Counted from the first letter of the stretch, positions 20,097 through 28,660 are shown. The stretch: 39,218 nt of DNA from Peptococcaceae bacterium (GCA_009778595.1 WRJI01000013.1:1-39218), one strand, 5' to 3'. Notes: generated from the letters alone by a model not told the origin. Made by a program: numbers and translations.

Positions 20097-20170
20097 GAAC
20101 GGAGCAGAACATGGAATGGTAAGGTTATTGGTTACCGTCCCTTAACTTGAGAACAGAAAGGAGTGTCGCC

Positions 20171-21112
20171 TTGGGGCAGCCAAATTTTTTCGTTGCGCCG
20201 AGCAACAGTCAGGCGTATCAGGTTGTGGCCAATCTCAATGTGGATACCTTGCCGCCTGCGACGCTGATTTATGGGACACAAGGCTCAGGTAAGACTTCGC
20301 TGCTTTTAATGCTGCAGGCAGAGCTGGCGCAACGGGGGCAGAAGGTTCTTTGCGTTGACGCCCTAGATTTTTCCAGACGGTATGCGTTTGCCGCGCAGAA
20401 GAGGATACTGCCGGCTTTTCGACATACCATGAGATCGAACTCTATCTTCTTATGTGACAATATGGAGAGGATCTGCGGAAAAGAAAAGTCTATGGAAGAA
20501 CTTATGTATACATGCGAGGGGATTTGGGTTAAGGGTGGTCATGTTATTGCAACACTGAATACGGAGCGGTTGACGCTTCGCGAGTTTGGCCCTCGTTTGG
20601 CTTCGAGACTCTGCGTGGGAATATCTGCCCATATCGAAAAACCGTCGCCGGAGGAGGTTCGTGCTTTTCTGGAATGGCGTCAGGAGAGGGGTTCGCCTGT
20701 GCGGGATTCGAGGTCGGGTTCTGAGGGGAATCATGAACCTGCGGACTGTTATCGGGGTTTGCATTTTGGCCAAATTGCCCGCTATCTGGATCGTTTGGAT
20801 GAGAGAGAAGAGTGGATTCCGGGCAATTTTGAAGAGATAACCGAACGGATGATGGCGATCTCATGGTATGGTTTTGGTGTTGAGGAGGACGAGCTTCGTG
20901 GGCCGTCCCGGGGCGTGAAGATTGTCCGTTTGCGTTCAATACAGTATACTATTCTCTATAACAAAGGGTATACCCAGCGCGAAATAGCATGTTATTACAG
21001 GCAAGGGAGAGATGCCGTTGCCCGGGGGTGTGCGCGGCTGAGAGCTAATTGGAGCGAATTTGAGGAGGATTATGATTTTTTTATAAATGAATTGAGGGGG
21101 TCTTTGATATGA
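20171..21112 (+). CDS. DnaA-family AAA+ ATPase paralogue (DnaA/Hda-like)
   Basis: A protein of about 313 residues laid out like DnaA domains III-IV without domain I. FFVAPSNSQAYQVV opens it, Walker A is GTQGSGKT (35-42), and Walker B is SIFLCDNM (Asp96), where DnaA normally has two acids but here the second is Asn. IATLNTERL follows as sensor 1, and RLASRLCVGISAHIEKPSPE matches the DnaA arginine-finger region (box VII). The C-terminal YTQREIACYYRQGRDAVARG imitates the domain IV helix-turn-helix (EIGxxFGGRDHSTV) in diverged form. The start is TTG at 20171, seven bases after AAAGGAG. It overlaps the next gene by four bases. It may be a replication-control or mobile-element ATPase. Confidence 0.75.
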   Translation: MGQPNFFVAPSNSQAYQVVANLNVDTLPPATLIYGTQGSGKTSLLLMLQAELAQRGQKVLCVDALDFSRRYAFAAQKRILPAFRHTMRSNSIFLCDNMERICGKEKSMEELMYTCEGIWVKGGHVIATLNTERLTLREFGPRLASRLCVGISAHIEKPSPEEVRAFLEWRQERGSPVRDSRSGSEGNHEPADCYRGLHFGQIARYLDRLDEREEWIPGNFEEITERMMAISWYGFGVEEDELRGPSRGVKIVRLRSIQYTILYNKGYTQREIACYYRQGRDAVARGCARLRANWSEFEEDYDFFINELRGSLI

Positions 21113-23535
21113 TGGATAGCATTCAAGAGTTTTTATTGAATCACTTCCCTGAAAGAAGCGAACTGTCTTTTGAGGATTTCACACGAGCAGGGGAAGAGGA
21201 TCATGGCTGGTCGGATAATTCTGTCGCCCAGTATGCTTATGACGGTGATTTTGAGTTGGAGAAACAGGCGTTTAACATGATAACGCAACCTTGGCCGGAC
21301 ATCGATTGGTTTCAGATTGGTGACGACGGGTATTTGATCCCGGGTTGTTTGAATATGAAGAGTTTTCTTCACGCGTTTCCGTCGTTGTTGTATCATTTGT
21401 ATCGTCAATCACAGATGGAACCCGGGGAAGAGCGGGAGCACGGCCGCTTGTTGACTGCCAATTTTATCGGGACATTAGATATGAATGCGCTGAAGCAGTT
21501 GGAAGACGATATCTATGGTGAGGGGACTTTTGACTGGAAAAGGAAGTATTATCATTCTTTAGACGATGATGTTAAGAGGTTTATTGGTTTGCTTCTGCGT
21601 ATGAGCGGAGGGACAGGAGCTTTGACAAGTTTTTGGGGAATCTTCCGGGACTATCTTAAGCCTCAGGGTGAAGATAAGAGTTCAGAGGTTCAAGCAGACA
21701 ACCCTCAAAAGGTGAAGGCCGCGGAGGCGGAAGCGGCCGCGGAGGCGGAAGCGGCCGCGGAGGCGGAAGAGGCCACGGAGGCGGAAGCGGCCATGGAGGC
21801 GGAAGAGACCGCGGAGGCGGAAGCGGCCACGGAGGCGGAAGAGACCGCGGAGGCGGAAGCGGCCACGGGGGCGGAAGCGGCCACGGAGGCGGAAGCGGCT
21901 GCGGAGGCGGAAGCGGCCGCGGGGGCGGAAGCGGCCGCGGAGGCGGAAGAACTGACAGGCGTGGAAGAAGAATCCGGGGTTCAGGCCGGGTTTAGAGATA
22001 AGATAAAAACGGGATGGAAAGATAAGTTCCTGAATAAGTTGACTGAAAAATCCGGAGAAAAGGAACCGAAACAAAAGTCCGAATCAGAGGGGACCCTACT
22101 TGATGGAACCAAACTTGCCGGGACCGTACCGGAGGGGACTATTCCGGAGGGGACCATACTGGAGGAGGCCAAAATAGAGAGGGCCGGCAGGGTATCCAAG
22201 GTGGGCTCCAATGCGGAATCCCAGGAAATGGATGGTTTTTCATTGTATGGTCTTGATATGGCGTTTCGTCGGATCGAAGCCGGTTGTTTCGTCATGGGCT
22301 CTGACGCCGAATTTCGGCCGATTCATATTGCCCACCCATTTTATATGGGTCAGTTTCCTGTGACTCAGGATCAATGGCTTAAGGTTATGGATGATAACCC
22401 TAGTTTTTTCGTGAGGGGCGGCGATTATCCTGTTGACAGTGTGGCTTGGGATGAGGTGTTGGCATTTATTGCGCAATTAAACAATCCGGCCTGGTGGAAA
22501 GATAAATCAAATGCCGGCCGGAAGTTTAAGCAATTTATCACGCGGTTGAACCAAGCTGAGGGGTTGGATGAGAATGAGGGGTATGTTCTTCGTTTACCTA
22601 CGGAAGCTGAATGGGAGTACGCTTGTCGGGCTTCGTTTGGGACGGACCCTGAATGTCCGACTGTTGATATGCAGCCATGGTTTTTTGGAAACCGAATGTC
22701 TGATCTTGAGAAATATGCCTGGTTCAACCGAAATTCGGGTGGTGAGACCCATCCTGTGGGAGAAAAGCGTCCTAATCCCTGGGGATTGTACGATATGTAC
22801 GGCAATGTGGAGGAGTGGACGTGGGATTGTTGGAGTGGTACGGGACCGGATGGTGATGTTGTAGCTACGGCTGAGCTTTTGAGTCCGGTTTGGGGGAGTT
22901 GTCGGCGCGGAGGAAGTTGGTTTACGCCGGGTCTTCAGTTGAGTTCGGCTTGCCGGTCGACAGATTTCTCGACCAGTTTGTGCGGGTTTGCCGGGTTGAG
23001 GTTGGTCATTGCGCCGCGTTTGCCTGCAGCGAAGGATACGTGTATGGAAGAGGTGTATGCTCAAGCTGACTTTTTGTTTGATTTGGGCTTTCATGATCTG
23101 GCCCGCAGGTTGTTTGTCTGTTTGGCGGAGGACAAGTATTCCGAGGCGTTGAATCGATTGGCTATTATTTATTTGGGTGGGTACGGCGTTAAGGTGAATA
23201 AATCCAGGGCGTTATCGTACCTTAAGAAAGCCGCTCGTTTACAGAATCCAATGGCGACGATGAATCTGGCGCTTTTCTATAAGGATGATTTGAAGAAGTA
23301 TCAAAGAGCGTTTCGTAGGTTCCGAAATCTGGAAAAAGATGAGAATTCAAAATATCGCGGTGAAGCCGCTATCGAAATGGCAAAGATGTATATGCAGGGG
23401 TTGGGGGTCAGAAGAAATGTTGGCAAAGCTCAGAAACTTCTTGATGATTTGATGAATGACGGGCCAACGTTGGAGGGGTTGTCACAAAGGACGAAGGAGG
23501 AGATTCTTCATCTTTTAAGGGCGGCTTCCCACTGA
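21109..23535 (+). CDS. FGE-sulfatase domain protein with N-terminal unknown domain, Glu-Ala linker and Sel1 repeats
   Basis: An 808-residue protein translationally coupled to the DnaA-like gene. Residues 1-185 form an unrecognised cytoplasmic-type domain. Residues 203-281 are a low-complexity Glu/Ala linker (AEAEAAAEAE type), followed by GT-x-PEG repeats (about 329-350). Residues 385-635 are a formylglycine-generating-enzyme-like domain: FVMGSDAEF, MGQFPVTQDQWLKVM, LPTEAEWEYACRA, WGLYDMYGNVEEWTWD and RRGGSWF, ending GFAGLRLVI. The last 150 residues hold Sel1-like helical repeats (ALNRLAIIYLGGYGVKVNKS, AAIEMAKMYMQGLGVRRN). Many such FGE-like domains are binding folds rather than sulfatase activators, and no sulfatase is nearby. 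Its task with the ATPase is unknown. Confidence 0.8.
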   Translation: MMDSIQEFLLNHFPERSELSFEDFTRAGEEDHGWSDNSVAQYAYDGDFELEKQAFNMITQPWPDIDWFQIGDDGYLIPGCLNMKSFLHAFPSLLYHLYRQSQMEPGEEREHGRLLTANFIGTLDMNALKQLEDDIYGEGTFDWKRKYYHSLDDDVKRFIGLLLRMSGGTGALTSFWGIFRDYLKPQGEDKSSEVQADNPQKVKAAEAEAAAEAEAAAEAEEATEAEAAMEAEETAEAEAATEAEETAEAEAATGAEAATEAEAAAEAEAAAGAEAAAEAEELTGVEEESGVQAGFRDKIKTGWKDKFLNKLTEKSGEKEPKQKSESEGTLLDGTKLAGTVPEGTIPEGTILEEAKIERAGRVSKVGSNAESQEMDGFSLYGLDMAFRRIEAGCFVMGSDAEFRPIHIAHPFYMGQFPVTQDQWLKVMDDNPSFFVRGGDYPVDSVAWDEVLAFIAQLNNPAWWKDKSNAGRKFKQFITRLNQAEGLDENEGYVLRLPTEAEWEYACRASFGTDPECPTVDMQPWFFGNRMSDLEKYAWFNRNSGGETHPVGEKRPNPWGLYDMYGNVEEWTWDCWSGTGPDGDVVATAELLSPVWGSCRRGGSWFTPGLQLSSACRSTDFSTSLCGFAGLRLVIAPRLPAAKDTCMEEVYAQADFLFDLGFHDLARRLFVCLAEDKYSEALNRLAIIYLGGYGVKVNKSRALSYLKKAARLQNPMATMNLALFYKDDLKKYQRAFRRFRNLEKDENSKYRGEAAIEMAKMYMQGLGVRRNVGKAQKLLDDLMNDGPTLEGLSQRTKEEILHLLRAASH
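21715..21951 (+). repeat. In-frame tandem repeat encoding a Glu-Ala linker
   Basis: About 13 imperfect units of 18 bases of the type GCGGAGGCGGAAGCGGCC encode E-A-E-A-A-A variants. The units differ by point changes (GCC to ACC, GAG to GGG) and sometimes GAG for GCG. Such tracts expand and contract by slippage or recombination, so linker length probably varies between strains. Confidence 0.85.
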
Positions 23536-23679: not shown

Positions 23680-24666
23680 ATGGAAAGAGTCCAACGGGTT
23701 GCTGTTTTGACCAGCGGTGGTGATGCTCCGGGCATGAATGCCGCTATTCGCGCGGTGGTGCGCAAGGGAATCGCTTGCGGGCTGGATATGTTTGGTGTGG
23801 AGCACGGGTTCCTTGGGTTGATTAAGCAAGAGGTCAAACGGATGCATCTCGGGTCGGTTGCGGATATTATTCATCGTGGCGGGACGATTCTTAAGACCGC
23901 CCGCTGCAATGATATGTTTACACCTGAGGGTGTGGCCCGGGCGGCCCAGACGTTGAAGGAGATTTCGATTCACGCCTTGGTGGTTATTGGAGGAGACGGG
24001 TCTTACCGGGGATCTCAGGCGTTGCATGAGCATGGGATCCATGTTGTGGGGGTTCCGGCGACCATTGATAATGATATTGTTGGTACAGATCGAACGATCG
24101 GGTTTGATACGGCGGTCAATACCGCTGTTGGGGCGATCAGTAAAATTCGTGATACAGCGAGTTCCCACGAAAGAGCGTTTCTCATTGAGGTTATGGGTCG
24201 GAATTGCGGTGATATTGCTTTGAGAGCCGGTTTGGCTATTGGGGCGGAATCCTTGCTTATCCCGGAGGTTGAGTACGATTTGGAGGATGTGGCGGATAAA
24301 ATGCTGCGAGGGTTTAAGAGGGGTAAAAACCACAGTATTATCATTGTTTCGGAAGGAGCTGGAGATATATGGCAAATCGCGGATACCTTGCGCGGCCTGA
24401 CGGGGTTTGACAGCCGAGTAACTATTCTGGGACATATCCAGCGCGGCGGCGCGCCTTCGGCGGAGGATGCGGTGTTGGCGGCTGCAATGGGAAGTAAAGC
24501 TGTCGATGCTGTTACTAACAATTCAAGAGAACAGGAAACGGCGATCAGCCTTATGGTGGCACAGGATTGTAATGATATTGTTTTGCGTCCTTTGGCGGAT
24601 GCTTTTGTGGGTGAACGAGGTTTTGATAGAGGGCTTTACGATCTGGCAGGAGATCTGGCGATTTAG
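23680..24666 (+). CDS. pfkA: 6-phosphofructokinase
   Basis: A 328-residue PfkA-family enzyme. The ATP-site motif TSGGDAPGMNAAIRAVVRKG is at the N-terminus. GGDGSYRGSQAL has the Gly that marks ATP rather than pyrophosphate use. The catalytic PATIDNDIVGTDRTIGFDTA carries Ala where many enzymes have Gly. EVMGRNCGDIALRAGLAIGA and LGHIQRGGAPSAEDAVLAA complete the family pattern. GGGGAGG before the ATG fixes the start. It phosphorylates fructose 6-phosphate in glycolysis. It stands apart from pyruvate kinase, its common neighbour, and is followed 50 bases later by an FtsA-like gene. Confidence 0.92.
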   Translation: MERVQRVAVLTSGGDAPGMNAAIRAVVRKGIACGLDMFGVEHGFLGLIKQEVKRMHLGSVADIIHRGGTILKTARCNDMFTPEGVARAAQTLKEISIHALVVIGGDGSYRGSQALHEHGIHVVGVPATIDNDIVGTDRTIGFDTAVNTAVGAISKIRDTASSHERAFLIEVMGRNCGDIALRAGLAIGAESLLIPEVEYDLEDVADKMLRGFKRGKNHSIIIVSEGAGDIWQIADTLRGLTGFDSRVTILGHIQRGGAPSAEDAVLAAAMGSKAVDAVTNNSREQETAISLMVAQDCNDIVLRPLADAFVGERGFDRGLYDLAGDLAI

Positions 24667-24715: not shown

Positions 24716-26824
24716 ATGGAGGATCGTGTTTTTGCATTAGACATTGGGACACGTGTGGTTATGGGTTTGGTTATGACAAGAAAGGATGGGGTCTACTATA
24801 TTGAGGCTTCCGCTCGTTCTGAACATGAGCAGCGCTCGATGTTTGACGGCCAGATTCATGATGTGGCGAAAGTGGCTCAGGAAGTCAAGAGGATTAAAGA
24901 GGCGTTGGAGGAAAAGACGGGGATACCTCTTCCGCGGGTTTCGGTGGCGGCTGCGGGACGGGCCTTGAAAACCCAGGTGGCGAGAGCGACCCGGGAGGAG
25001 ATTTTGCCGATGCTCTGGCATCAGAGGGATCAAATGGCTCTGGAATTAGAGTCGGTGCAACGCGCTATGCGGGTTGTTTCTTCGGAAGCACGGGCAAATG
25101 ATCAAAACTATTATTGTGTGGGGTATTGTACGGTTCGGCAGGAGCTTGACGGTGTTTGTCTTGAAAATATTGTCGGTCAGCGGGGCAAATTAGCGACAGT
25201 GGAAGTTGTGGCGACATTCTTGCCCCGATTGGTCGTGGATTCGTTGATGTCGGTGTTGAGTCAGGCTGGGCTGGAGCTGGCGGGGTTGACGTTGGAACCG
25301 ATTGCCGCAGGTTTAGCGGCTATCCCGACAGATATGCGGCGGCTTAATTTGGCTTTAGTGGATGTGGGTGCCGGAACTTCTGATATTGCGTTGACCCGGG
25401 ACGGGAGTTTTTTTGCTTTTGGTATGGTTCCTGTGGCAGGTGATGAGGTCACCGAAGCGATTTGCGCTGAGTATTTATTGGATTTTGCCACTGGGGAAAG
25501 CTTGAAACGGTTTTCGGGTAAAGATGTAATTACAGTAGAGAATTTTTTTGGTGAGAAGGTTGTGCTGACCCAGCTGCAGGTTGCGGAACCGATAACCCCA
25601 GTAGTCAGCCTGGTGAGCGGGGAAATCGCCCGGGAGATTATGAGACTGAATGGGGATGAGCCACCTCAGGCAGTGATTTTGGTGGGTGGAGGTGTGACGA
25701 AGCGGTTATCAGAGGAGTTGGCTGAGGTTTTGAAGGTGCCTTCTGAGCGCGTGGGGATCCAGATACGGGAGCGACTCCAAAATGTGCGTGGGGATGAGAG
25801 CGTGTCGGGGTCGCATGTTATTACTGCGTTAGGGATTGGGATGGCCGATTTCGAGAATCGGACGCTTCATTATTATTCTGTTAGAGTTAATGGCGTGGTG
25901 GTATCTATTTTTGAGTTGCAGCTTGCTTCTGTGGCGGAGGCTTTGCTGGCGGCGGGGATTCAGCCGCGGTTCTTCTTGGGGAGGCCCGGTCAGGCGTTGG
26001 TGTACACCTTGAATGGGGAGATGAAAATTGTTAAGGGGGCACCGGGCATGAACGCCGACATTGTCGTGAACGGGGAACGGGCATGCCTTGAACATAAAAT
26101 CGCGCCTGGAGATGAGATTGAATTTTCCCCCGGAACAAATGGCGAGGATGCGAAGATTCGACTAAAAAGAGTTGTGTCACTCAACAAATCCAAAAAAATC
26201 TGGTATAATGGGCGTGAGGAGGCTTTTGTACCGCACGTGTGTGTGAACGGCGAGTTAGCTGATGTGAAGCAGTGGTTGTGTGATGGGGATGTTGTGAGTA
26301 TCCTGTCTAACGATACGTTGGAGGATCTTCTTCAGACCAAGGGGCTGAGCCTGAACGCTCCTAATGCGATTCATGTGTATGTTGACGGTGAGGAGAGAGT
26401 GTTTTCGCCGCGGCGGGATGTTCTGTTGAATGGAGAAACTGTGACCTATGACAGAGCACTGGTTGATGGGGATAGAGTCGATGTGAATTATGAGACGTTG
26501 TTATTGCGGGATCTTAATCTGAAGGCTGAGCCGTTGCCTTTGTACTTAAACAATCGCAGGTTTTTATTAAAACCGAAGCAGACAAGGGTGTTCTCTAAGG
26601 AGGGAACAGAGTTGACTGAGTCGAATCCTGTTGATGAGGGGATGGTTCTATCGGTGCAAGGGTTTGCGGAGGAGCCGATTCTATCGGATGTCGTTCCTTT
26701 TGTATCGGATATCCATGCAACGTCGAATGGATCCAGCCTGCGGCTGGAGATCAATGAGCATGAAGCCGGGTTTTCTTCACGGATTCATGAGGGTGATAGA
26801 ATTTTGATAGAGTGGGTGAAATAG
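24716..26824 (+). CDS. FtsA-like actin-fold protein with long C-terminal extension
   Basis: A 702-residue protein. The first roughly 400 residues have the FtsA/ASKHA fold: FALDIGTRVVMGLVM (phosphate 1), an FtsA-type insertion around SVAAAGRALKTQVARA, LALVDVGAGTSDIALT (phosphate 2) and AVILVGGGVTKRLSEEL (adenosine). From about residue 400 there are repeated beta-rich units with 'VNGExxxL...DGDxV' turns (for example HVCVNGELADVKQWLCDGD and HVYVDGEERVFS), resembling small beta-grasp domains. Similar long FtsA-domain proteins are known in Clostridia as a group distinct from division FtsA, which is about 410-440 residues. Its stop directly adjoins the GTG of the lgt gene, so the two are co-translated. 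The role is probably in the cell envelope, but unproven. Confidence 0.8.
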   Translation: MEDRVFALDIGTRVVMGLVMTRKDGVYYIEASARSEHEQRSMFDGQIHDVAKVAQEVKRIKEALEEKTGIPLPRVSVAAAGRALKTQVARATREEILPMLWHQRDQMALELESVQRAMRVVSSEARANDQNYYCVGYCTVRQELDGVCLENIVGQRGKLATVEVVATFLPRLVVDSLMSVLSQAGLELAGLTLEPIAAGLAAIPTDMRRLNLALVDVGAGTSDIALTRDGSFFAFGMVPVAGDEVTEAICAEYLLDFATGESLKRFSGKDVITVENFFGEKVVLTQLQVAEPITPVVSLVSGEIAREIMRLNGDEPPQAVILVGGGVTKRLSEELAEVLKVPSERVGIQIRERLQNVRGDESVSGSHVITALGIGMADFENRTLHYYSVRVNGVVVSIFELQLASVAEALLAAGIQPRFFLGRPGQALVYTLNGEMKIVKGAPGMNADIVVNGERACLEHKIAPGDEIEFSPGTNGEDAKIRLKRVVSLNKSKKIWYNGREEAFVPHVCVNGELADVKQWLCDGDVVSILSNDTLEDLLQTKGLSLNAPNAIHVYVDGEERVFSPRRDVLLNGETVTYDRALVDGDRVDVNYETLLLRDLNLKAEPLPLYLNNRRFLLKPKQTRVFSKEGTELTESNPVDEGMVLSVQGFAEEPILSDVVPFVSDIHATSNGSSLRLEINEHEAGFSSRIHEGDRILIEWVK

Positions 26825-28660
26825 GTGCATAAATATTGGTTTTCTTTGGGTGCTTATGAACAGGGGACCTACGGGACGATTCTGGTGTTGGCCTTTTTCC
26901 TGAGTATGGGTGTAGCTGTGTTCATGGCGCGAAGCGCAGGTCGGAAAGATCTGACGGTTCCGATAGTTGATATGTCGCTCTTTTCTATTTTTGGTGGGTT
27001 GATTGGTGCCAGATTGTGGCATGTGTTTGTGTTTAACTGGTCTTACTACAGCGAACATCTTTCAGAGATTTATAAGGTTTGGCACGGAGGGTTGTCTATT
27101 CAGGGCGGGTTGATCGGCGGTTTCCTGGTGGCGATTTTTTATTGTTATCGTAAGAAGGTTAGTTTTTGGTTGATGGCGGATGTGTGCGCACCGGCTTTGA
27201 TCTTTGGTCAAGGGATTGGGCGATATGCCAATCTTCTAAACGGTGACGGCTTAGCCAGTCCTACGGGAGGGGATTTTGGCGTCGTTTATCCACCCGGGAC
27301 GAACGCGTATGCCCAATATCAAGATCAGCCTCTTTGGCCGGCGGAGACGTGGGAAGGCCAGATTGATATTGTTATTTTTGCCCTGTTGCTTATTTTCCGA
27401 CTTCGTAAGTGGCCTTCAGGGTTTATTTTCTTGTTCTATGTTCTTATGTACAGTATGAATCGGTTTGGAATGGAGTATTTACGCGGCGATACGCCTCAAG
27501 TGGGACCTCTTACGGCAGCCCAATGGACGGCTGTGGCTTTAGCGGCGCTGGCGCTGGTTTTCTTGCTTGTGCGCCATAAGGCTCCTAAGGTGTTAGGGTT
27601 TGGGATCCAGCCGGATAATGATCCGGATAAAGGGCCGGATAGCGACAAAGGGGCAGGAAAAGGCAAAGACAAAGACAAAGGCAAAGACAAAGGTAAAGGC
27701 AAAGACGAAGGTAAAGGCAAAGACAAAGACAATGGCGACGGCAAAGGCAAAGACAATGGCGACGGCGACGGCGAAATAAGTACCGATAAGGGATTGGGTA
27801 AGGATTCCGGTAAAAGTTCCAGTTCTGATGATGGATCTCCGGATGTCGCAGGGAATCTTGGGGCGGCTGTAACGAGTGCTGGGTTTGTACCGGGTGAGCC
27901 TTTGCCGAAAGATATTCTGCCAAAAGAGAGTTCGTTTAAAACAGAGGATGTTTTGGTGAAGAAGGATTTGACGATGACTGAGGAGGATCTGCGGGCAGCG
28001 GGATGGATTGAGGTGCGTTCGGAGGAAACGACGACTGCGACAACTATTGTGCCGATTGCGGAGGATGCGCTTAAGCGTGAGTCATTGAAACAGGATGCAA
28101 TGAGACATGAAGCCCAGAAGCAGGAGATATTAAAACAAGATGCCCTGAAGAAGGAGGTACTCAGTCAAGAGGCTTTGAAGCAGGAGGCCCTGAAGCAGGA
28201 GGCTCAGAGGCAGGAGGCTCAGAAGCAGGAGGCCCTGAAGCAGGAGGCTCAGAAGCAGGAGGCCCTGAAGCGGGAGGCTCAGAAGCAGGAGGCTCAGAGG
28301 CAGGAGGCTCAGAGGCAGGAGGCTCAGAAGCAGGAGGCCCTGAAGCAGGAGGCTCAGAAGCAGGAGGCCCTAAAGCAGGAGGCTCAGAAGCAGGATGAGT
28401 CTGTAAGGAAAAAATGGGAACTTGTTGGTCAGGACGGTAGGAACGGGGAGAGTGTCGAATTCAACCAAGGAGAGCCCATGCACAGAAATCCAGTGAGTGG
28501 AAGGACTGCATATGTAAACGAGAGTACTGTGGGAGGTTCCAATGAATCCGTGAGCAACCCAAAGGACCCCATTGGAAAACCGATGGAGACACCAATGCCG
28601 ATCGAGATTCCACCACATGTCGATATTCCTGTTCTGAAAGATTCCTTTCACAACTCATGA
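26825..28660 (+). CDS. lgt: Prolipoprotein diacylglyceryl transferase with a long hydrophilic tail
   Basis: Residues 1-252 are a standard Lgt: several membrane spans, the VWHGGLSIQGGLIGG loop (85-99), and the Lgt signature GIGRYANLLNGDGLASPTGG (130-149), ending with YLRGDTP and a final span. It transfers diacylglycerol from phosphatidylglycerol to the lipobox cysteine of exported lipoproteins, for example those at 190 and 4480. The start is the GTG immediately after the FtsA-like stop. The unusual part is residues 253-611: a Lys/Asp/Gly run (about 272-318), a Ser/Asp-rich stretch, a Lys/Gln/Glu/Ala pentad-repeat segment (about 435-520), and a Pro-rich end. The family is normally about 250-290 residues. 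The tail should lie on one side of the membrane and is predicted to be disordered or coiled coil. Confidence 0.9.
   Translation: MHKYWFSLGAYEQGTYGTILVLAFFLSMGVAVFMARSAGRKDLTVPIVDMSLFSIFGGLIGARLWHVFVFNWSYYSEHLSEIYKVWHGGLSIQGGLIGGFLVAIFYCYRKKVSFWLMADVCAPALIFGQGIGRYANLLNGDGLASPTGGDFGVVYPPGTNAYAQYQDQPLWPAETWEGQIDIVIFALLLIFRLRKWPSGFIFLFYVLMYSMNRFGMEYLRGDTPQVGPLTAAQWTAVALAALALVFLLVRHKAPKVLGFGIQPDNDPDKGPDSDKGAGKGKDKDKGKDKGKGKDEGKGKDKDNGDGKGKDNGDGDGEISTDKGLGKDSGKSSSSDDGSPDVAGNLGAAVTSAGFVPGEPLPKDILPKESSFKTEDVLVKKDLTMTEEDLRAAGWIEVRSEETTTATTIVPIAEDALKRESLKQDAMRHEAQKQEILKQDALKKEVLSQEALKQEALKQEAQRQEAQKQEALKQEAQKQEALKREAQKQEAQRQEAQRQEAQKQEALKQEAQKQEALKQEAQKQDESVRKKWELVGQDGRNGESVEFNQGEPMHRNPVSGRTAYVNESTVGGSNESVSNPKDPIGKPMETPMPIEIPPHVDIPVLKDSFHNS
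27650..27775 (+). repeat. In-frame Lys/Asp/Gly-coding short repeats in the lgt tail
   Basis: Tandem 6- and 12-base units (GGCAAAGACAAA types) encode GKDKGKDKGKGKDEG-like sequence of alternating charge. The purine-only composition on one strand is striking and slippage-prone. Confidence 0.8.
28130..28396 (+). repeat. In-frame 15-base repeats encoding Lys/Gln-Gln-Glu-Ala pentads in the lgt tail
   Basis: About seventeen imperfect 15-base units (CAGGAGGCTCAGAAG and CAGGAGGCCCTGAAG types) encode pentads such as QEALK, QEAQK and QEAQR. A five-residue period of highly charged helix formers suggests a long single helix or coiled coil. Unit-to-unit identity is high, implying recent expansion. Confidence 0.85.

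Follow-up and report, generated by a model that had tools for sequence, protein, structure and literature searches.

The gene at positions 20171 to 21112, which with its orthologues we name dnaAL, encodes a DnaA-like ATPase. It is a member of a separate side-branch of DnaA that has been kept by vertical descent in two families of a single Bacillota order. The FGE/Sel1 gene that overlaps it is a recent, lineage-specific insertion between dnaAL and the phosphofructokinase gene pfkA, and lies outside the ancestral unit. From the residues that are kept and lost, dnaAL may be an ATP-binding, poorly hydrolysing partner of DnaA that joins its AAA+ oligomers and tunes initiation, a reading that we favor tentatively and place somewhat short of an even chance. 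The window, meaning the whole stretch of 39,218 nucleotides that was analysed, corresponds to contig C13 in the 2.83-Mb draft genome of a Peptococcaceae bacterium.

The two overlapping genes

The features of the window discussed here are all on the plus strand:

20157..20163, +, AAAGGAG, putative ribosome-binding site for TTG 20171, found by eye
20171..21112, +, dnaAL, DnaA-like ATPase with domains III and IV, 313 aa from TTG 20171
20273..20296, +, Walker A GTQGSGKT of dnaAL, residues 43-50 in the reading from 20147
20456..20461, +, Walker B acids of dnaAL, with the Asp of E. coli D235 kept and Asn at the D236 position
20594..20611, +, box VII/arginine finger RLASRL of dnaAL, equivalents of E. 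coli R281 and R285
20840..21109, +, diverged DnaA domain IV of dnaAL with helix-turn-helix, borders approximate
21109..23535, +, FGE/Sel1 protein, 808 aa, overlapping dnaAL at ATGA and lying between dnaAL and pfkA
23680..24666, +, pfkA, ATP-dependent 6-phosphofructokinase, the usual gene after dnaAL elsewhere
24716..26824, +, FtsA/PilM-like protein of ~700 aa, after pfkA and kept across the two families

The initial annotation described two genes overlapping by four bases, and both are real, with open reading frames (20147-21112 and 21109-23535) that share the bases ATGA. The longest reading of dnaAL begins at 20147, and the TTG at 20171 is the better start, since it has AAAGGAG 7-8 bases before it and gives an N-terminus that agrees with those of relatives. 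The Walker A, RLASRL and PSPE motifs named in the annotation are all present in the sequence, and Walker B reads CDN, with the expected Asn in place of the second acid. DnaA domain I is absent, as had been claimed, and the window protein and nearly all of its relatives start at the N-terminus of domain III. The protein matches Bac_DnaA at 1.3e-14 and the DnaA model TIGR00362 at 1.3e-19, where its 70.6 bits fall below the NCBIfam cut-off of 343.9. Domain IV of the window protein received no Pfam call at E 0.01, and its description as a diverged domain IV is borne out by Bac_DnaA_C calls in 26/27 aligned family members and by the AF2 model of the window protein (pLDDT 86.8), which includes a C-terminal helical domain. 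Within this domain the Arg equivalent to E. coli R407 is kept and the DnaA-box readers His434 and Thr436 are lost. The ordinary dnaA of the same genome is on a separate contig (C10), and another contig (C63) carries an ORF pair that, read from the sequences, resembles DnaD and DnaI; the standard initiation machinery thus appears to be present.

Distribution and relationship of dnaAL

Almost all bacteria have DnaA, and usually only one. The census covered the window's family (f1, 25 genomes, the window's included) and a second family of the same order (f2, 46 genomes), taken as the Desulfosporosinus family; members of the two families include Desulfosporosinus. Ordinary dnaA is accompanied by dnaAL in 68/71 of these genomes, comprising 25/25 in f1 and 43/46 in f2, where the genomes without it (G048, G055 and G062) are drafts at 87-92% completeness. 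Two further families, f3 and f4, were also searched and hold only ordinary DnaA, and no dnaAL was found in the rest of the class. Orthologues are mostly 280-340 aa long. Among the matches listed for a sample of 398 Bacillota genomes, the scores of dnaAL members run from 218-430 bits, against 200 bits for the best other match; none of these listed matches is a dnaAL outside f1 and f2, the others being ORFs of at least 437 aa, and weaker, distant members may lie below the matches listed. A scan of named genomes placed the Peptococcaceae bacterium MAGs Nt197P3 nearest (54-65% identity), followed mostly by Desulfosporosinus; the isolate code hints at a termite gut. A literature search found no paper on this family, and the family models scanned give it no group of its own.

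The assignment to the DnaA family, made in the initial annotation, is upheld by profile, structure and tree comparison, which together rule out a grouping with IstB, DnaC or DnaI. In profile comparison the match to Aquifex DnaA, which covers domains III and IV, is at 9.5e-48, compared to 5e-07 for DnaI and 1.5e-4 for IstB, and across the family DnaA is matched by 27/27 members (to 8.3e-54) and IstB by 24/27 (to 3.3e-12). The top Foldseek matches are all DnaA, followed by Hda, with IstB far behind. In the tree, dnaAL forms one clade (100/100) apart from all sampled DnaA, and a tree constrained to unite it with the DnaA of these families is worse by 51 log-likelihood units and is rejected (p-AU 0.004). 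As the branches are long, dnaAL could still have arisen by an old duplication inside Bacillota. A mobile-element origin was rejected, with plasmids giving ordinary DnaA only and phages giving partial, weak matches.

The gene is under purifying selection, with dN/dS of 0.10-0.28 in eleven pairs; in these pairs pfkA is the more tightly constrained gene, by a factor of about two to six. To members of other genera the window protein is 21-29% identical. In its own genus dnaAL is strongly diverged, on a long branch, with Gly at sensor 2. A separate observation is a 643-aa ORF (L117:1549-3480; G006:C42:25800-30500) that joins BspA-type leucine-rich repeats to a complete DnaA domain III and IV (Bac_DnaA 205 bits, Bac_DnaA_C 98 bits). 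This fusion, which could be a draft-assembly error, falls with the true DnaA of f1, apart from dnaAL, and its genome also has ordinary dnaA and dnaAL.

Gene neighbourhood

In 33/41 loci pfkA lies directly downstream of dnaAL, on the same strand and within about 150 bp; the count includes one locus (L039) where pfkA reads in two pieces. As for the remaining loci, the window and G001, of the same genus, have the FGE/Sel1 gene in between; four f2 loci have pfkA 1.5-1.7 kb from dnaAL, with a PRC-barrel/MgtE_N/CBS gene between them where examined; one locus stops at a contig edge; and in G002, also of the window's genus, dnaAL and pfkA are on different contigs. The PRC-barrel/MgtE_N/CBS gene of L058, L059 and L062 occupies the slot taken by the FGE/Sel1 gene in the window. 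Since these two unrelated genes are found in the same slot, the gap between dnaAL and pfkA accepts insertions, and with insertions on at least two occasions and the detachment in G002 the link between dnaAL and pfkA is breakable. Upstream genes vary, with glutamine synthetase in f1 and LysR and cyclophilin in f2. DnaA boxes near dnaAL (14 observed, 9.5 expected) are consistent with chance, and a scan for promoters and terminators gave results near chance.

Other observations concern the surrounding genes. The FtsA/PilM-like protein (24716-26824) has weak ubiquitin-like (TGS/Mut7-C) matches. It is followed at 26825-28660 by an lgt-like ORF of 611 aa whose C-terminus is extended by a long stretch of low complexity resembling histone H1-like HC2; Lgt at the same place elsewhere is about 260-280 aa, and G001 has an ORF of 730 aa. 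Upstream of glutamine synthetase and dnaAL, 25 loci of f1 encode a ~177-aa protein with no Pfam match (L050:6458-6988 and relatives).

The FGE/Sel1 gene

The second gene has the composition given in the initial annotation: an N-terminal domain with no Pfam match, a Glu/Ala linker, an FGE-sulfatase domain (residues 389-633, 2.2e-30) and Sel1 repeats (678-712, 3.4e-12). The model of the N-terminal domain (pLDDT 37.5) is too poor for the fold to be read. The full protein is present in 2/121 related genomes, those of the window and G001, with 66% identity across its full length, and is missing from G002. The N-terminal domain occurs in the same two genomes only, among 83 genomes of the class. The gene adjoins dnaAL in 2/41 loci, both of one genus, and 66 further genomes have dnaAL without the FGE/Sel1 protein.

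The annotation had read the two genes as a paired system, and this reading is not supported: the co-occurrence search found the pair in a single additional genome, of the same genus, which is close to no conservation at all. Its remark that no described system pairs a DnaA-like ATPase with FGE/Sel1 is correct, because the pairing is not conserved. In the two genomes that have it, the FGE/Sel1 protein is conceivably a secondary, local partner of the strongly diverged dnaAL, as the overlap and its conservation in G001 would allow.

The best solved match to the FGE part is TvpA of Treponema denticola (2y3c, 1.3e-21). TvpA, PorK/GldK, PvdO and the formylglycine-generating enzyme share the FGE-sulfatase/C-type-lectin-like fold with it; unlike these proteins, it is joined to Sel1 repeats and to an orphan domain at the N-terminus. 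Inspection of the FGE part by eye did not reveal the catalytic Cys pair of a true formylglycine-generating enzyme. The match to TvpA raised the idea of a diversity-generating retroelement acting on the FGE domain, which was not supported: the candidate variable stretch has no second copy in the window genome, and a search there for a reverse transcriptase gave partial matches only.

Residues kept and lost in dnaAL

We aligned 41 dnaAL proteins (25 from f1, 16 from f2) with 20 true DnaA, E. coli DnaA and Hda. The Walker A Lys (K178) and the first Walker B Asp (D235) are each found in 41/41, and the second Walker B acid is Asn in 19/25 of f1 and Asp in 11/16 of f2. The sensor 1 Asp269 is present in 0/41 dnaAL compared to 21/21 DnaA, and the sensor 2 Arg334 in 3/41 compared to 21/21, being replaced by Lys in 19/25 of f1 and by Gly in the window's genus. 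Most dnaAL have Ala in place of the ssDNA residue V211.

In E. coli DnaA, R227, K243, R281, R285 and L290 form contacts between one domain III and the next (PMC5742627). In dnaAL these are kept in 41/41, 39/41, 32/41, 33/41 and 23/41, respectively, while the other 105 of 110 DnaA-invariant columns are kept in a mean of 12.9/41. The contact residues are thus kept more than other invariant columns (p 0.003 in a rank test and p 0.012 when the test is limited to charged residues), a statistic that is supportive and not decisive because the columns are non-independent and K178, D235, E248, E249 and R407 are likewise kept. In domain IV, the DnaA-box reader His434 is found in 16/16 of f2 and 0/25 of f1, and two genera, one represented by a complete genome (L053), lack the domain:

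L053:8178-8792 and L070:8690-9301, dnaAL without domain IV, ~203 aa, Hda-like domain make-up

Given these two AAA+-only genera and the loss of His434 in f1, it seems to be the AAA+ surface, and not the reading of DnaA boxes, that is kept.

Proposed role and alternatives

From the pattern of residues we infer ATP binding, poor hydrolysis, contact with DnaA and an effect on initiation. With an invariant Walker A Lys and first Walker B Asp, dnaAL is predicted to bind ATP. It would turn ATP over inefficiently, having no sensor 1, a missing or altered sensor 2 and often Asn as the second Walker B residue, and would still offer the DnaA-DnaA contact residues. Domain I of DnaA is responsible for helicase recruitment. 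A protein that binds ATP, cannot hydrolyse it efficiently and keeps the contact residues could insert into or cap the AAA+ oligomers of DnaA, where it would be a subunit that lacks domain I and stays ATP-bound for long. The simplest outcome, by analogy with Hda, which acts via the same domain, would be that initiation is damped or timed. A replication-linked role, as suggested by the initial annotation, is still plausible for the ATPase, while a joint system with FGE/Sel1 finds no support. The Bacillota initiation regulator YabA is present in most of the dnaAL genomes, which leaves no gap for dnaAL to fill and rules it out as a YabA replacement. Several points stand against a partner of DnaA: R227, K243 and the finger could serve homo-oligomers instead of contact with DnaA, the His434 kept in every f2 member may mean that DNA reading is important there, a clamp motif of the Hda type is missing, and the adjacency to pfkA may point to metabolism.

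That adjacency could reflect an ATP-responsive regulator of its own operon, with domain IV binding near pfkA/pgi to tune glycolysis to the ATP level and with no role at oriC. The closeness of pfkA in 33/41 loci, despite the differing upstream genes of f1 and f2, fits this, as do the Bac_DnaA_C calls in 26/27 members and the invariant His434 of f2. However, f1 has lost the DnaA-box readers and two genera the whole of domain IV, unrelated genes have entered the gap at least twice, dnaAL is detached in G002, and such a regulator would not need the DnaA contact residues to be kept; we regard it as unlikely but worth serious attention. The kept interface residues would be explained equally well if dnaAL assembled with itself, since all of them sit on one protein. 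A homo-oligomeric, ATP-bound filament on DNA with a job in repair, segregation or sporulation, unrelated to DnaA, would also suit the fact that f3, f4 and other Bacillota do without dnaAL, but the neighbours are metabolic and envelope genes, with none for repair or segregation, and two genera lack domain IV, which leaves this explanation improbable.

Far less credible is a dedicated two-gene system of dnaAL and FGE/Sel1 in signalling, conflict or defence. While the ATGA overlap suggests translational coupling, the pair is kept in G001 and dnaAL is strongly diverged in this genus (sensor 2 Gly, long branch), the full FGE/Sel1 protein in 2/121 relatives, its absence from G002 and the 66 genomes with dnaAL alone all argue against it. 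The defence role that had been thought conceivable gained nothing from PADLOC models, which gave partial P-loop matches only (best 1.6e-08) and no convincing one, from the housekeeping neighbours, or from phages and plasmids, where only ordinary or partial DnaA was found. The fast evolution of dnaAL and its truncation in two genera could also describe a functionless, decaying relic of a plasmid or second-replicon initiator; with purifying selection in all eleven pairs, retention in 68/71 genomes and an invariant Walker A Lys and Walker B Asp, we consider this extremely unlikely.

The partner reading can be extended to a new class of DnaA-derived regulator in Bacillota, ATP-locked and co-operonic with phosphofructokinase (sometimes phosphoglucose isomerase), which would join DnaA at the origin and tie initiation to glycolysis; we hold this fuller version to be doubtful. 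Links of carbon metabolism to replication timing have been reviewed (PMC10427196), and the adjacency to pfkA would give a handle on how carbon metabolism sets this timing. As dnaAL is found in cultured genera such as Desulfosporosinus, it can be tested.

Comparison with known systems

Compared to DnaA (TIGR00362, PF00308 and PF08299), dnaAL shares Walker A and B, box VII, the arginine finger, R227/K243 and the fold of domain IV. It differs in lacking domains I and II and sensor 1, in having mostly lost sensor 2 and often the second Walker B acid, and, in f1, in the loss of the DnaA-box readers; the window protein is far below the DnaA cut-off, and a normal dnaA coexists with it. IstB, DnaC and DnaI have a related AAA+ core and no DnaA box VII or domain IV.

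Hda is the best-known stripped-down DnaA derivative with a job of its own; it is proteobacterial and acts through DnaA, whose ATP hydrolysis it stimulates. Like dnaAL, Hda/HdaA (TIGR03420, PRK09087) is derived from DnaA, has no domain I and keeps the arginine finger, and the Asn in place of the second Walker B acid is seen in E. coli Hda too. The two truncated dnaAL genera are cut to a domain size similar to that of Hda. Unlike Hda, dnaAL retains domain IV in all but L053 and L070, scores better against DnaA than against Hda, and has lost the Asp of sensor 1 and nearly always the Arg of sensor 2, both of which Hda keeps. The N-terminal beta-clamp motif, QLSLP in E. coli Hda, is found in none of the 41 dnaAL, apart from two matches that lie inside the first strand. 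If the partner reading is true, dnaAL would be a second, separately derived form of initiation control, in Bacillota.
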